From Oligoflexia bacterium (GTDB taxonomy: Bacteria > Bdellovibrionota > JAFGOL01), in NCBI GenBank assembly GCA_016926495.1, contig JAFGOL010000010.1, forward strand, positions 1-12,629: a DNA stretch of 12,629 bases, read 5' to 3'. Every line of letters begins with the position of its first letter. Positions within the stretch are counted from its first letter, which is position 1. This document shows positions 2,272 to 8,012 of this stretch, piece by piece. The position numbers and the translations under genes are program-made. The notes under the pieces are model-generated. The model was not told the DNA's origin. It saw nothing but the letters and a program-made list of their open reading frames with translations, and did no database searches.

Positions 2272-2300
2272 ATTATTAATTCAGGGAAGGGGTGTCAAAT

Positions 2301-3734
2301 ATGACGTTTTTAAGATTATCCGCAACAATGCTGTTTATTGCCCTATTTGCGATATCCTGCAGTAATGTCAGGGTGGCCAAGGGGTTTAAAACAAACAGCG
2401 ATACAAACAGCGATTCGGCGCAAAACAGCGTGGAAGCCAATACAAATCCGGACATAAGGACCGTGGAACAGTTGATAGCAAACACGGACCTTGAAGGATA
2501 TTCCGATGACGAGCTTGACCTTTCAAGCCTTACTCTTGATCAGGGCCCCCAGCAAAAGCACAAAATACCCCACGAAATAAACACAGCCGTTAAAAAGTGG
2601 ATATACTACTTCACGCACGAAAACCGCGAATGGTTCCAGCGCTCTCTCACAAGATCCGAAAAATACGAAGCCAATATGAAAAACATACTCATCAAATACG
2701 GTGTGCCGGAAGAACTATTCTACGTAGCGTTCATTGAAAGCGGTTTTGTGCAAAACGCAAGATCAAGGGCACGGGCCCAGGGTATCTGGCAATTCATGAA
2801 AAGCACTGCAAAGCTTTACGGCCTCAAAGTCAATTACGGCAATGACGAAAGGAACCATCCCTATAAGGCAACCGCAGCAGCGGCAGCGCACCTGAGGGAC
2901 CTCTATAACATATATGGTTCCTGGTACCTTGCCATAGCCTCTTACAATGCCGGAGAATTCAGAATAAGACGGGCAATTTTAAGGCACAAGGAAAGAAACT
3001 TCTGGGAACTGGCGGAAAAGCACGCTCTTCCCGACGAAACAATGAATTATGTACCCAAATTTATGGCAGCAAGGATAATAGCCGAAAATCCCGCAAAATT
3101 CGGGTTTCAGTATAACGGCCCGAGCAAAGACGTGGAAACCATAGCCGAGGAAGTTGAAGAGCTTGTAAGCATAGAAAAGTACGACCGTGTTATGCCGGAT
3201 CCGCGTAAGATTGGCTACAATAAAGAAGCCGGTGTCTACAAGGTACGGCGCGGAGATAACCTGTGGACCATAGCGAGAAGAATAAGGGTGCCCATAAACA
3301 GGCTCAAGGAATGCAATCCGAGCCTGTCAAATAACAGGATATATCCCGGGCAAAAACTCAGCACAAAATGCACTACTGTATCAAGGCGCTCAAACCCGGG
3401 GTCTGTAAATTCCGGGGGCACTTATACCGTAAGAAACGGCGATAACCTCTGGATGATTGCCAAAAGGCACAGAACTACGGTAGCGGAACTGAGAAGATGC
3501 AACGATACGGTAAAAAGGCATACCCTGTTTCCGGGACAAAAACTTACACTATCCTGCGCCGGGGAGAACGAAAATGACAGGGTTGTACACACGGTAAGGC
3601 GGGGAGAATCGCTCTGGAGTATCGCGCAAAAATACAAGGTGTCAGTTTCAGATATCGCGCGATCAAACAATCTCAGAAGAACGCATAGGATCTTTGCAGG
3701 AAGAAAACTTGTAATTCCCACTAACGGCGGATAA
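2301..3734 (+). CDS. MltD-like membrane-bound lytic murein transglycosylase with three LysM domains (lipoprotein)
   Basis: A 477-residue predicted lipoprotein that would cleave the MurNAc-GlcNAc bond of peptidoglycan, leaving 1,6-anhydro ends. The signal peptide ends in FAISC with Cys20 as the likely lipidated residue; Ser at +2 would favour outer-membrane sorting under the E. coli rule. A polar linker precedes the SLT domain (about 127-242): catalytic Glu146 in FIESGF, then ARAQGIWQFM and AIASYNAGE, all typical of family 1 transglycosylases. Three LysM peptidoglycan-binding repeats follow (about 313-357, 375-418, 430-473), each with a V-R-x-G-[DE]-[NS]-LW core. AAGGGG (2287-2292) is 8 nt before ATG 2301; a GTG at 2292 is in frame but overlaps that site. 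The stop is directly followed, in the same frame, by the kinase-like gene. Confidence 0.93.
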   Translation: MTFLRLSATMLFIALFAISCSNVRVAKGFKTNSDTNSDSAQNSVEANTNPDIRTVEQLIANTDLEGYSDDELDLSSLTLDQGPQQKHKIPHEINTAVKKWIYYFTHENREWFQRSLTRSEKYEANMKNILIKYGVPEELFYVAFIESGFVQNARSRARAQGIWQFMKSTAKLYGLKVNYGNDERNHPYKATAAAAAHLRDLYNIYGSWYLAIASYNAGEFRIRRAILRHKERNFWELAEKHALPDETMNYVPKFMAARIIAENPAKFGFQYNGPSKDVETIAEEVEELVSIEKYDRVMPDPRKIGYNKEAGVYKVRRGDNLWTIARRIRVPINRLKECNPSLSNNRIYPGQKLSTKCTTVSRRSNPGSVNSGGTYTVRNGDNLWMIAKRHRTTVAELRRCNDTVKRHTLFPGQKLTLSCAGENENDRVVHTVRRGESLWSIAQKYKVSVSDIARSNNLRRTHRIFAGRKLVIPTNGG

Positions 3735-3740
3735 TTGTTT

Positions 3741-4790
3741 ATGCCTCCCCTGTTCCTGCTTTTTCTTGTTGCCTGCATTTATCCTTTTTCATCACTTCCG
3801 GCCAATATTGATATTAACAGCGATAAAATAAATATTTCACTCATGGGAGATCTTGAAGGTACTTCCATAATACTGAAAATAAAGGACGATAAAGGTAAAA
3901 AAATAGGCGTATTCAAGCCCTCAAGCGGCAGCACTAACCACAGGGGGGAATACGCGATGACCGTACTCGGCCATACAATAGGGTTTGACATATTCCCGGA
4001 CGCTATAATCACATCCCTTAAGCCTGAAACAATCAACAAGGTAATCAACCTTCTTGAAAACGTTAAATTTACCGGATTTTACGGAGCAAAGCATGTACTG
4101 CACATGAAGCGCAAGGAGCAGAACAGAAAATCCATGATACAGGACCTTAAAAAACTCGTAGAAGCCGGGCAGCCGCTGGAAGGAGTATTAAAACTGTGGG
4201 TGTACAATATACAGTTTTACGTACCGCTGGGCTCAATGCGGGGATTCAGCAGCCATCAATTAAAAAAATACCTTAACGCGAAAAACAGCATGCCCGAACA
4301 CAAACCGTTTATTATAAAACAATGTACAAAGCTGTTTAAGCCTTACGGCTGCTACTACGGCCATTCATTTGAAGACGAAATAGCCAGAGACATGAGCAGC
4401 CTGCTACTGCTGGATGCCATACTTGCAAACAGGGACAGGTTTGCGGGCGGCAATATACACTTCAGGTCCGTTGACGGCAAGGTCATTGAAAAGGAAAATA
4501 AATTCATCTATCCGGCGGTCAGGTTGCTTGCCCTTGACAACGGCGCCGTTTTGTTCCCAAATGATTACTATGCCTTTAAGCTTCTGAAAAAATTTAATAT
4601 ATCCAGATTTGTAAAAAAACACGTAACGGAACTGAAAAAATTCTTTAAACAGGATAACGGCAAAATCGCTGACAAGTTGAAGCTTACCGGGAAAGAAGCA
4701 GGAATAACCGTTACCAACGCAAAGCTTGTCTTTAACTACATAGACGGCCTTGAAAAAAAGTATGGCGGCAATATCTGGTTTAAGGAATAA
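3741..4790 (+). CDS. Predicted exported Fam20C/HipA/PI-kinase-like kinase
   Basis: A 349-residue protein from ATG 3741; a TTG at 3735 in the same frame adds two residues. A hydrophobic N-terminus (MPPLFLLFLVAC) predicts export, and LVAC is a textbook lipobox, although the usual basic n-region is absent. The rest has the skeleton of the Fam20C/HipA/PI3-4-kinase-like group: GVFKP with Lys59 (ATP lysine), RGEYA with Glu70 about 11 residues later, a catalytic loop of the NxDR type (LLDAILANRDR, Asp232, with Asn238 following in GGN), and a DFG-like metal-binding Asp266 in LALDNG, matching Fam20C LDNG. Family assignment is by motif; phosphorylation is inferred and the substrate unknown. Pseudokinase, lipid or small-molecule kinase activity cannot be excluded. 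It is probably co-expressed with the upstream cell-wall enzyme and ends 3 bp from a convergent gene. Confidence 0.7.
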   Translation: MPPLFLLFLVACIYPFSSLPANIDINSDKINISLMGDLEGTSIILKIKDDKGKKIGVFKPSSGSTNHRGEYAMTVLGHTIGFDIFPDAIITSLKPETINKVINLLENVKFTGFYGAKHVLHMKRKEQNRKSMIQDLKKLVEAGQPLEGVLKLWVYNIQFYVPLGSMRGFSSHQLKKYLNAKNSMPEHKPFIIKQCTKLFKPYGCYYGHSFEDEIARDMSSLLLLDAILANRDRFAGGNIHFRSVDGKVIEKENKFIYPAVRLLALDNGAVLFPNDYYAFKLLKKFNISRFVKKHVTELKKFFKQDNGKIADKLKLTGKEAGITVTNAKLVFNYIDGLEKKYGGNIWFKE

Positions 4791-4793
4791 AAA

Positions 4794-5333
4794 TCATTCA
4801 CTGAATACAACCTGCCCGTCTTCGCTTACATAAACGGCCCTTAGTACATTTATGCTGTTCTTTTCCTTGTCGACATAGATCCTGCATATTCTGTCCTTTA
4901 TGCCTTTTTCCTGGTCCGCCCTGTTAACAAGAAAAACGGAATTTTTTCCATCATCAACATCTGGCTTGCCTTCGTAATTAAACACAACAGTCCCGTTTTT
5001 GAAAATCACACCCTTATTCTCAAACCATCCGGAAAATAACACGTCTTTGTAGATGTTCGCCATAAAGACAGTCTTTATAACAAGATCTTCCCTGTCGAAA
5101 TTACCGTTTTTGTTTATATCGACAAAAACACTATATTTCTGTTCTCCCTTCGTTACAAAATGCAGCCCGTAGTTCTCCTTTTCCCTTATGGAATTACTCC
5201 TGGCAAAAAGCAAATCCTCGGCGATAAGCCTTGAAGCCCTGAAGTTTTTATGCTCCTTGTATGATTCAACAAAGGTGGGTATGGAATATATCAAAGCAAT
5301 AAGTAACACGATTGTAATAATAAAATATCTCAA
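4794..5333 (-). CDS. GspH/FimT-like pseudopilin-like protein
   Basis: A 179-residue protein from TTG 5333. One hydrophobic helix (about 3-21) is followed by a helical stretch RASRLIAEDLLFARSNSIRE and a beta-rich C-terminus, the layout of GspH/FimT minor pseudopilins, which sit at the tip of a type II secretion pseudopilus or type IV pilus. A calcium-loop-like DINKNGNFDRED (72-83), common in such pilins, is visible. Oddities: no Gly before the hydrophobic helix, only a two-residue leader, and no Glu at mature position 5. A longer frame to 5504 is open but lies entirely within pilD. The TTG overlaps the pilD stop (TTGA) with a good Shine-Dalgarno. Family assignment is moderate; processing by the neighbouring peptidase is doubtful. 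Confidence 0.75.
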   Translation of the reverse strand: MRYFIITIVLLIALIYSIPTFVESYKEHKNFRASRLIAEDLLFARSNSIREKENYGLHFVTKGEQKYSVFVDINKNGNFDREDLVIKTVFMANIYKDVLFSGWFENKGVIFKNGTVVFNYEGKPDVDDGKNSVFLVNRADQEKGIKDRICRIYVDKEKNSINVLRAVYVSEDGQVVFSE

Positions 5334-6082
5334 CCGGGGAACCCTCCCTCGGCTATAAAAAAGTAAAGTATTGAGGCTATACCTATAAAGGGCCCGAACG
5401 GAATGGCCGTTTGCCTGCCCTGCCTGTAAACCAGCATCATGATTATACCGTATACTGAGCCCAGTATGGAACTGGCGAAAATGACTATAAGTACCGGATA
5501 CCATCCCAAAAGGGCACCCACACCCGCAAGAAGCTTGATATCTCCCCCGCCAAGCCCTTCCCTGCCCGTTAACCTGTAATAGAGTTCGGCTACGACAAAA
5601 AGCATGCCTCCTCCCACGACTATACCGGCAGCCGATTCATGCCAGGCCATCATGGGATCAATCAGCGAGAGAATAAAACCCGCAATAACCAGCCCGATGC
5701 TGAAACGGTCAGGAATTATTCTATGTTCAATATCTATCAAAATGCAGGGGATCATAACGCTGATAAGCAAAAAAGTCCTTATCAGCGTATAGATATCGAC
5801 AAAAAGTAATTCAAATGCCAGTACAAAAAGCAAGGCAACCGCAAATTCCGTAAGCCAGTACCGGAAAGGAATTTTAGTGCTGCAATAACTGCATTTTCCT
5901 TTCAGCATAAAATACGAAAACAGGGGCAGGTTATGGTACCACCTGATTTTCGTGTTACATTCCCCGCAAAAACTCGCAGGTACAACTACGGAAATTTTTT
6001 TCGGTAATCTGTACGCGACAAGGGCAAGAAAACTGCCCCAACAGGCTCCGGCAAAAAAAATTATTATATCCAGCCAATACAT
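5330..6082 (-). CDS. pilD: Prepilin peptidase / N-methyltransferase (PilD/GspO)
   Basis: A 250-residue polytopic inner-membrane aspartyl protease that removes prepilin leaders and N-methylates the new N-terminus. Two CxxC pairs for the zinc-binding cytoplasmic loop are visible (Cys39/Cys42 and Cys64/Cys67), preceded by the family's GSFLALVAYRLP. The two catalytic aspartates are Asp117 in LIDIEHRIIPD and Asp181 in LGGGDIKLLAG. Length is normal for the bifunctional enzyme, and both domains are intact. ATG 6082 has GGAGG 5 nt upstream and overlaps the preceding membrane-protein gene by 19 nt. The position after ABC-like and permease-like genes matches pilD following pilGHI in the Myxococcus pilus cluster. 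The fold is certain; the pilus or secretion system served is not visible in the window. Confidence 0.96.
   Translation of the reverse strand: MYWLDIIIFFAGACWGSFLALVAYRLPKKISVVVPASFCGECNTKIRWYHNLPLFSYFMLKGKCSYCSTKIPFRYWLTEFAVALLFVLAFELLFVDIYTLIRTFLLISVMIPCILIDIEHRIIPDRFSIGLVIAGFILSLIDPMMAWHESAAGIVVGGGMLFVVAELYYRLTGREGLGGGDIKLLAGVGALLGWYPVLIVIFASSILGSVYGIIMMLVYRQGRQTAIPFGPFIGIASILYFFIAEGGFPG
5342..5348 (-). promoter_or_regulatory. Shine-Dalgarno GGGAGGG deciding the TTG start of the pseudopilin-like gene
   Basis: The site lies inside the last codons of pilD, 8 nt before TTG 5333, whose last two bases start the pilD stop codon. This supports the short form of the downstream protein and translational coupling. 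Confidence 0.65.
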
Positions 6083-6714
6083 TCCTGCCTCCAGGCTCCA
6101 ATATATAATCTGTTCGCGATAATATAATAAATCAGAACATACATTAAAGTATAACCCGCGGCACCCTGAATGCCACCACTAATAATATAGGCAAAATTGG
6201 GAATTATATAGAGGGGAAAATAAAGCGAAACAAAAAAAGCCGCAAACAGGATATAAAACACAAACCATATCTTCAAAAACAACACAAGGGTCCTTGCAAG
6301 TACAAGAAAAGAAGTAAACACGAGTACCGCCAGAAAATACCTTACATTGAATTCCCACAACAATACGGATATATAAATATACATGACAAAACCGGAAAAC
6401 ATGACAAAAAGATAAAATACCGTAAACTGGACGTTAACACCGGCACCAAGACGCCTGTACAATATCACCTCGTTTTTCAGATCATCTCCGTAAGGAAATA
6501 CCAGCCACACCAAGACGACCATCATGATCACCGACAGAACAACACCCAGCGCCAGCCCTGTAACAGCTGAGAAAAACAGGACATAGGGCATATTTGAATA
6601 ATAAACAGGGATAAGCCTTGAGGAAAGAAAAACAAGGAAAAGAAAAAAAGGAGCAAACCACAGGTACCTGCTTTGCCTTACAAGACGGGAAAATGTAATA
6701 AAAAAAACAGCCAT
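6064..6714 (-). CDS. Polytopic membrane protein, ABC-2/PilI-like permease candidate
   Basis: A 216-residue integral membrane protein from ATG 6714, with about six predicted transmembrane helices (roughly 17-32, 43-72, 98-118, 123-145, 148-170 and 190-207) and short loops, including the cytoplasmic-looking basic stretch DDLKNEVILYRR. No catalytic motif. Size, topology and its place directly after an ABC-ATPase-like gene suggest an ABC-2-type permease, matching PilI in the pilG-pilH-pilI-pilD order of Myxococcus; that is inference from context. An upstream ATG at 6744 is in frame but would overlap the ATPase-like gene by 29 nt and has no ribosome binding site, whereas ATG 6714 has GGCGG about 8 nt upstream and begins 1 nt after the preceding stop. 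Confidence 0.75.
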   Translation of the reverse strand: MAVFFITFSRLVRQSRYLWFAPFFLFLVFLSSRLIPVYYSNMPYVLFFSAVTGLALGVVLSVIMMVVLVWLVFPYGDDLKNEVILYRRLGAGVNVQFTVFYLFVMFSGFVMYIYISVLLWEFNVRYFLAVLVFTSFLVLARTLVLFLKIWFVFYILFAAFFVSLYFPLYIIPNFAYIISGGIQGAAGYTLMYVLIYYIIANRLYIGAWRQECIGWI

Positions 6715-6715
6715 G

Positions 6716-7348
6716 CTATTTACCGCCGGTCCCGAATTTAACATGTTTTGAATAGACAGGGGGCTCTTCGGAACAAAGTATGATAAAAGACGTCCCCTCC
6801 GCAGCGTATTCGTTGATCCTGTCGCCTAAAAAAACCGACTCCTGTGTTTCAAGGCCCTGAAAGGGTTCTACCAGGGGCACAAGCAGCGCAGGCATGGACA
6901 TGCCAAGCGCCGTTACAACCCTCCTTTTTGTCCACGGTTTCATCTCCGCAAGCTTCATTTTCAGGGCATAGGTAATCCCCAAACCTTCGGAGTTTTTACG
7001 AAACTCGTCATAAACCATTGATGTCTGCAAACTCAGCGATATAGAAAGAATTCTAACCATCAGCTTCAGGTCCTCAAGGCATGGAAGCCAGTAACCGGAA
7101 CTTATATACGAAACAAGTTTTTTTACGTCTCTTCCCAGGGGACGTCCGGCAAGGCTCAATTCACCTTTTTCGGGTTCAAGCAGGCCCAGCAGCAGGGAAA
7201 CAAAAATCTCGGCGTACAATTCATGTTCGACCTCAAGCCACAATACTTCTCCTGAACACAAAGAAATATCGGGAACATGAATCTTTTTATCCACAACGAC
7301 ATTCCTGACGCTCAACAATACACTACCTGCTTTTGCCGCCTCTTTCAC
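6716..7348 (-). CDS. Degenerate ABC-transporter ATPase-like protein (probable pseudo-ATPase, PilH-like position)
   Basis: A 210-residue protein co-linear with an ABC ATPase domain. GEVLWL (33-38) and LLLGLLEPEKGELSLAG (52-68) align with the sequences flanking Walker A, with identical spacing. Between them the GxxGxGKT site reads VEHELYAE (40-47), so every glycine and the lysine are lost. The signature LSGGQ region reads MKPWT before KRR (136-143). Walker B reads PLVEP (158-162): the aspartate is Val160, the glutamate Glu161 remains, followed by GLE as D-loop. The H-loop His is Glu194. ATP binding is therefore unlikely. GTG 7348 has AAGGAG 5 nt upstream and overlaps the previous gene by 26 nt. 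The neighbours suggest a diverged PilH-like partner of the membrane protein. The fold is inferred; no frameshift is seen. Confidence 0.75.
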   Translation of the reverse strand: MKEAAKAGSVLLSVRNVVVDKKIHVPDISLCSGEVLWLEVEHELYAEIFVSLLLGLLEPEKGELSLAGRPLGRDVKKLVSYISSGYWLPCLEDLKLMVRILSISLSLQTSMVYDEFRKNSEGLGITYALKMKLAEMKPWTKRRVVTALGMSMPALLVPLVEPFQGLETQESVFLGDRINEYAAEGTSFIILCSEEPPVYSKHVKFGTGGK

Positions 7349-8012
7349 TCGTACTCCTTATCTGCCCCTGTTTGGCTATAAAATACTGTCCGCCGTAAGG
7401 TTCCTCCGGAATTTCGTCAATTATACCTGCTTCCTCAAGAACCGAAAGATCACCGGGGAATATCTTGTTTGCCTGGTAATACTTTTCTACAGCCCTGGTA
7501 AGAAAAAGAATATTCCTTTCGTGCTGCAAGCCCCTGATGGCTTCAAGATACCAGGCTTTTTTATAGGGGTCGCTGGTTTTCTGATCGAGCTCCTTTAAAA
7601 AATCAATACCCCTGGCAAATCCTTCAACGCTCCTTAAAACCTTAAGATAACATATAACATATTGTTCATTATTGTAGAGTTCAACACCCTTGCCGATTAT
7701 AGTCAGCAGTTCGTCAATATCCACCCTTGAAGCCATATATTCCTCGACCGAAGAGCATATCTCCCGGTAAATGCTTTCAAACTCAGGATTATAACGCATG
7801 GTTTGCTTTACAACTTCAAACCTGGACGAAAAATCCTTCTGTTCCTCAAGCTCCTTCCATATCAACGCTGAATATGTTTCCTTAATAACAGTCAAAGGGT
7901 CCTTGTAAACGGAGGTATCGGGTTTTTTAACGGGTGCCGGTTTCAAAAAAAAAGCCGTAATTACGGACACGAAAAAAAGCAATGTCACAACTGACAAATA
8001 GCGGACAACCAT
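7323..8012 (-). CDS. Membrane-anchored protein with GspG-like C-terminal segment (PilG-like position)
   Basis: A 229-residue protein with one N-terminal transmembrane helix (about 5-23, [14 protein letters not shown]) and a large, mainly helical, presumably periplasmic domain. Residues about 177-220 resemble the tail of major pseudopilins: KYYQANKIFPGDLSVLEEAG followed by IPEEPYGGQYFI, comparable to the Y-x-G-x-YP...L...G...P-x-DPWG-x-Y pattern of GspG. It has no prepilin cleavage motif, so it is not itself a canonical pseudopilin. It precedes the ABC-like gene and overlaps the yjbQ stop by an ATGA junction. The slot corresponds to pilG in the Myxococcus pilGHI order; no orthology is claimed from sequence. 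A role in pilus or secretion assembly is inferred. Confidence 0.7.
   Translation of the reverse strand: MVVRYLSVVTLLFFVSVITAFFLKPAPVKKPDTSVYKDPLTVIKETYSALIWKELEEQKDFSSRFEVVKQTMRYNPEFESIYREICSSVEEYMASRVDIDELLTIIGKGVELYNNEQYVICYLKVLRSVEGFARGIDFLKELDQKTSDPYKKAWYLEAIRGLQHERNILFLTRAVEKYYQANKIFPGDLSVLEEAGIIDEIPEEPYGGQYFIAKQGQIRSTSERGGKSR

Follow-up and report, generated by a model that had tools for sequence, protein, structure and literature searches.

In animals, kinase action outside the cytosol is well documented, and the Fam20 family (Fam20A/B/C, Pfam PF06702; PDB 5xoo, 5yh0, 4kqb) comprises secretory enzymes whose targets are secreted proteins or the xylose of proteoglycans; in bacteria such kinases are, to our knowledge, hardly known. 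The type II PI4K enzymes (PI4K-II) act on cytosolic membrane faces, and the spacing between catalytic Asp and Asn is five residues in PKA, HipA and PI4K. Bacterial relatives of FAM20 and CotH are not a new idea, because a survey of Legionella kinases, in the sections drawn on here, clusters the Lmor_1975, LLO_1015, LLO_2159 and Lsai_0337 families with FAM20/CotH and suggests lipid substrates for them (PMC9758233). The comparison of these families with the one reported here is at the level of description, and we found no account of an exported family with its motifs in the open-access literature searched. The gene in question lies on a contig of 12,629 nucleotides, analyzed over its whole length (the window; JAFGOL010000010.1), from an Oligoflexia bacterium of the phylum Bdellovibrionota, and an earlier note made from the sequence alone had described its product as an exported Fam20C-like kinase. 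We consider it probable, though well short of certain, that the gene encodes an atypical, one-domain kinase that is exported and belongs to the Fam20 / PI4K-II / HipA superfamily, and that this kinase forms a bacterial family of its own, is accessory, and modifies an envelope or surface molecule (Table 1).

The predicted structure of the protein is a kinase fold, rather than the non-kinase fold that the earlier note had named as the adverse outcome, and its nearest solved structure is Fam20. A protein search recovered 36 sequences at E ≤ 0.01 from 4776 candidates, the window protein counted, and these were aligned (alignment A1). A search with A1, in which the 7996 candidates with the most shared words were scored, returned 13 proteins, three of them new; a second alignment of 38 rows (A2) combines 21 of the 36 A1 rows with these three, four loci, and ten distant relatives from the window's phylum. 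Counting residues from the ATG at 3741, the putative nucleotide-binding lysine K59 is present in 35/36 rows of A1, and E70, D232, R233, G236, N238, D266, N267 and G268 are invariant (36/36), as are K125 and W153. The residues picked out in the earlier note rank among the most conserved columns of this alignment, and because they are kept in 35-36 of its rows the kinase-type motifs are not due to chance. Its FKP lysine, RGE glutamate and LDNG metal site are all present and conserved, and half of its NRDR loop stands: D232 and R233 are invariant, whereas position 230 is Asn in 16 rows or Gln in 20 and position 231 is variable. The full K, E, D, N, D set is retained in 35/36 homologues, from several phyla, and the family signature reads DRFxGGN ... 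LDNG.

The argument for a link to Fam20 is that profile ranking and fold ranking agree. Against 177,635 distinct PDB sequences, the top three chains for the A1 profile are of Fam20C type (E 0.0032, 0.025 and 0.07), and the A2 profile places Fam20 chains at ranks 1-4 (E 3.8e-4, 0.0011, 0.061 and 0.086) and PI4K-II at ranks 5-8 (E 0.11-1.3). In the profile alignment D232-R233 falls over the Fam20 DR and L265-D266-N267-G268 over its LDNG, the catalytic Asp and LDNG being in register and invariant in the 36 sequences. The Hydra residue aligned with D232 is Asp299, the catalytic base, in the numbering used in PMC5865150, a register that we derived by fitting the Tyr148-Glu149-Gly150-Tyr151-Asp152 given in the cited part of that paper onto the aligned Hydra stretch. 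A similarity to ubiquitin (E 2.4e-6 to polyubiquitin chains) was rejected, as no stretch passes alone and the same 40 residues match the repeats.

Membership of Fam20 itself, as the earlier description implied, is not supported. The Pfam Fam20C model has no match to the window protein at E ≤ 1 and is absent from the 14 Pfam families matched by the 36 A1 members; PF06702 had no match at E ≤ 0.01 in the window genome and gave weak matches in 5/144 genomes of its phylum, with the cut-off reached in none. In the register of the profile alignment, Thr65, five residues before the alpha-C Glu, aligns with Hydra Asp152 (equivalent to worm Glu213 and human Fam20C Glu306). The cited part of PMC5865150 describes Glu306 as essential for catalysis and a Gln at the equivalent site as part of why Fam20A is a pseudokinase. 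Position 65 is Thr in 28 and Asn in 8 of the 36 A1 rows, and Asp or Glu in none of them (0/36), nor in any row of A2 (0/38). Fam20 further has DRH where the window protein has DRF plus GGN, N238 lies opposite a gap in the Fam20C alignment, identity is 12-16%, and the window protein is bacterial whereas the Fam20 kinases are animal proteins. Because the Pfam model is unmatched and the essential acidic residue is absent, we do not file the protein as a Fam20 member; it fits best as a family apart within the Fam20 / PI4K-II / HipA superfamily, with a fold nearest Fam20.

Comparison with other kinases leads no closer to a named family. PF00454, which covers PI4K-II, gave no hit to the window protein at E ≤ 1 and matches 4/36 A1 members at that level (best E 0.0013; P0008 reaches 14.8 bits, where the cut-off is 27.1); both fold and profile matches to PI4K-II are weaker than those to Fam20, and the window protein, unlike PI4K-II, carries an export signal. 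The Asn after the catalytic Asp (N238) is common to the window protein, HipA and PI4K. The HipA profile search proposed in the earlier note gave no HipA Pfam domain in the window protein or the 36 members, and no HipB-like gene was present among the neighbors scanned with Pfam, the flanking genes being MltD-like and GspH-like; the window protein differs from the toxin kinases HipA and HipT, and from CtkA, also in its export signal. CotH spore-coat kinases show lower structural similarity, and their model (PF08757) matched neither the window protein nor the 36 members. SelO is not among the fold matches listed for the window protein, which excludes nothing.

Export, the other half of the earlier description, is supported by hydrophobic N-termini across the family together with a co-varying cysteine pair. 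In A2, 34/38 rows have a best 12-residue hydrophobic mean of at least 1.88 within the first 60 residues, the exceptions being L013 (late start), L014 (cut by a contig end), L006 (frame starting at a contig end) and P0039 (1.62), and the N-termini of P0010, P0037, P0003 and P0016 resemble ordinary signal peptides, judged by eye. The most hydrophobic 12-residue stretch of the window protein begins at residue 4, with a Kyte-Doolittle mean of 2.57. C195 and C204 occur together in 14 of the 36 A1 rows, are both missing from 22 and are never found singly; a single Cys appears in 1/38 rows of A2 (L006), and P0013 and P0038, near the cysteine-bearing group, have neither. This co-variation supports a disulfide formed outside the cytoplasm, for which such a pattern would be expected, with shared ancestry explaining part of it. 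At the proposed lipobox, LVAC fits the bacterial lipoprotein pattern but is not preceded by a basic n-region, and close relatives are without it: the window protein alone has Cys at this column in A1 (1/36), and the other five of the six A2 rows that do so (6/38; P0036, L010, L011, L012 and L022) are all distant.

Beyond these computed features, we infer the following course of action. The N-terminal signal would carry the protein across the inner membrane, beyond which its final location would lie, and folding would include a disulfide in the strand pair. Nucleotide would be bound between the lobes via K59 and E70, and metal via N238 and D266. With D232 as the catalytic base, the gamma-phosphate would then be transferred to a hydroxyl group on an envelope or surface molecule, a Ser or Thr of exported proteins being the likeliest acceptor and a glycan a less likely one. 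ATP may be the donor, since a review cites a periplasmic ATP level of 24 uM per 10^10 bacteria in E. coli (a passage of PMC7432876).

Several points weigh against an active exported kinase of this kind. The first 28 residues of the window protein hold no K or R, and its own signal is atypical because the hydrophobic segment is without either. ATP is scarce outside the cytoplasm, and we know of no family member that has been assayed. The D232-N238 spacing is six residues, as against the five of PKA, HipA and PI4K; two unrelated chains follow the Fam20C-type chains in the A1 ranking at E 0.13 and 0.3, and the profile E-values for the Fam20 link are suggestive, not decisive. In the gene neighborhoods compared, no shared neighbor names a substrate. 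Finally, 11/38 rows of A2 (P0036 and ten from the window's phylum) have D232, N238 and D266 but have lost K59, the column holding L, V, I, M or S, and because this distant exported branch lacks the lysine some relatives may be pseudokinases. The rows in question, all of them exported relatives, are P0036, L010-L017, L020 and L022, of which L016 stops early.

One alternative is that the protein is itself an exported pseudokinase, whose nucleotide-binding or structural kinase fold regulates or scaffolds envelope proteins without phosphate transfer. We consider this unlikely: a complete K, E, D, N, D set in nearly all homologues of several phyla would be unexpected under relaxed selection, even though the shortage of ATP outside the cell, the lysine-less branch and the missing acidic residue of Fam20 are all in its favor. 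Fam20A provides a precedent for such a protein (cited part of PMC5865150).

The locus, compared across genomes, informs both the proposed accessory status of the kinase and a second alternative. In G010, which belongs to the same family as the window genome, a kinase fragment at a contig end is likewise convergent with the adjoining GspH-like gene, within a run of five genes that is conserved. In G001, also of this family, only 7 bp separate the MltD homologue from the GspH-like gene, and no kinase intervenes (identity to the window 51% over 463 residues for MltD and 42% over 166 for the GspH-like product, followed by a prepilin peptidase at 77% over 79), and no kinase was found elsewhere in this 80%-complete genome. 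Because G001 has the junction without the kinase, we conclude that the kinase is an accessory gene at the MltD/GspH-like junction and that the hydrolase is independent of it; the gene would be gained or lost as a unit. The cell-wall hydrolase adjoining the kinase is thus real, as the earlier note had it, but the functional tie drawn between the two is not supported, given the G001 arrangement. No neighbor is common to the window, L003, L004 and L005, and with the G001 arrangement this led us to reject a functional operon with the hydrolase as a general feature. One gene from the kinase relative in L004, the product of 4193-5272 starts with a signal-like segment and carries the motifs HxDNxxNQ and DLG; it is kinase-like by eye and has no Pfam hit.

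An enzyme secreted to act on other cells or inside them, be they prey, hosts or competitors, with ATP available there as for bacterial effector kinases, appears to us less probable again than a pseudokinase. The GspH-like and peptidase genes are convergent to the kinase and persist without it in G001, predation is not known for this genome, which is small (1.74 Mb, 76% complete), members in Elusimicrobia and Latescibacterota fit poorly, and no immunity or delivery partner was recognized in the Pfam-scanned neighbors, no search having been aimed at such partners.

In G288 (locus L036, 6243-12744), one of the distant exported relatives without the lysine stands at one end of a row of genes for an M48 peptidase, DUF4956, an HlyD-like protein, an unnamed product and VTC polyphosphate polymerase. 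CotH with a polyphosphate polymerase and DUF4956 is a known gene set (PMC7112168, in the part cited), so the relative takes the place normally held by CotH. A third alternative, in which this fold catalyzes AMP transfer or glutamylation or takes its phosphate from polyphosphate, draws on this locus and on the kinase-fold enzymes SelO and SidJ, which do such reactions (PMC9950578, in part). It is very improbable, given that among the loci compared G288 alone has VTC next to a relative; in G132, which holds the nearest relative, VTC does not adjoin it. A polyphosphate donor via VTC was rejected: VTC is present in 9/20 chosen genomes with a relative and 4/20 without (that is, with no A1 match at E 1e-4 or 1e-10), a nonsignificant difference (Fisher p 0.18), and in 3/14 controls, with none in the (incomplete) window genome.

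The exported kinase-like family is rare and patchy, because few genomes per phylum match. Named relatives, which account for 6 of the 30 matched stretches, belong to metagenome-assembled genomes of three Elusimicrobia, two Deltaproteobacteria and one Latescibacterota. In the window's phylum 18/368 genomes match A1 at E ≤ 1e-4, and among these a close full-length copy occurs only in the window genome. In a sample of 377 genomes from the phylum of the L008 genome, 23 match at 1e-10 (four candidates per genome scored), and for six the match spans most of the model with E below 1e-75; in that of the L003 genome 4/340 match, one partially. None of the genomes listed for the L003 phylum (24 of 340) or the L008 phylum (43 of 377) is in the window-phylum set. 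Among taxonomic markers, the RpoB domain was not detected in the incomplete window genome and threonine synthase carried no clear signal; DUF4423, a family abundant in Bdellovibrio, is present in 45/59 genomes of the window's phylum and 0/14 controls, a distribution that hints at Bdellovibrionota without proving it, as 0/4 genomes of the window's own family have DUF4423. A single-sequence scan of genome contigs encountered a relative in 0/72 stretches, and a viral origin was rejected, as 0/24 pattern-matched stretches of viral contigs encode one. P0002 carries the name "virulence-associated protein VapD," which looks like a misannotation. Seven loci from the window's phylum (L019, L021, L023, L024, L026, L027 and L028) encode another exported group of ~420-470 residues, in which motifs of DRFGN or DRY type occur together with DNDC; this may be one more family of exported kinase-like proteins.

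Table 1. Features of the kinase-like gene and its flanking genes in the window
Feature	Position	Strand	Basis or remark
Exported kinase-like protein, 349 aa	3741..4790	+	ORF call, homologues, model
Hydrophobic export-signal-like N-terminus, residues 1-19	3741..3797	+	Hydropathy, homologues
C12 of lipobox-like LVAC	3774-3776	+	Not common to close relatives
K59, putative beta-3 nucleotide-binding lysine (GVFKP)	3915..3917	+	35/36 A1 rows
E70 in RGE, putative alpha-C glutamate	3948..3950	+	36/36; aligns with conserved Glu of Fam20
C195 to C204, cysteine pair, probable disulfide	4323..4352	+	Neighboring strands of model
Catalytic loop D232-R-F-A-G-G-N238	4434..4454	+	D232, R233, G236, N238 36/36; D232 aligns with Fam20 DR
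Metal-binding D266-N267-G268 (DFG equivalent)	4536..4544	+	36/36; aligns with Fam20C LDNG
MltD-like SLT transglycosylase, three LysM domains	2292..3734	+	Upstream gene, possibly same transcript as kinase
GspH-like pilin gene, convergent; 3' border of accessory locus	4794..5504	-	Pfam GspH

The ATG at 3741 opens the kinase frame; an alternative in-frame TTG at 3735, directly after and in frame with the stop codon of the upstream gene, would give 351 aa. The product has no Pfam or NCBIfam name at E ≤ 1, and a single copy of the gene was detected in the window genome (~76% complete). The GspH-like product matches Pfam GspH at E 0.0015 and 19.4 bits, under the cut-off of 21, and opens a run of five genes at 4794-8012 (GspH-like pilin, prepilin peptidase and three whose products score under the cut-off of any Pfam model) that keeps its order in G010 at 29-51% identity; the product of 6719-7348 resembles a degenerate ABC ATPase by eye. 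At 535-2161, HTH_17 (excisionase-like) and tyrosine integrase genes adjoin a tRNA-Met gene (2085-2161, - strand) at its 3' end, and the DNA is 32-36% GC compared with 42-47% elsewhere in the window. This segment is likely an integrated mobile element ending at tRNA-Met.

It is a tentative and rather doubtful proposition that the family represents a bacterial extracytoplasmic kinase lineage which, among prokaryotes, stands nearest to the secretory Fam20 kinases of animals and has its own solution to the donor problem. If true, it would mean that bacteria phosphorylated secreted molecules beyond the cytosol earlier than the Golgi kinases did, or independently of them. An exported family with an intact catalytic set in multiple phyla offers an entry to the question of whether envelope or secreted molecules of bacteria are phosphorylated once they have been exported, and bears on which donor serves outside the inner membrane and on the origin of Fam20-type kinases.
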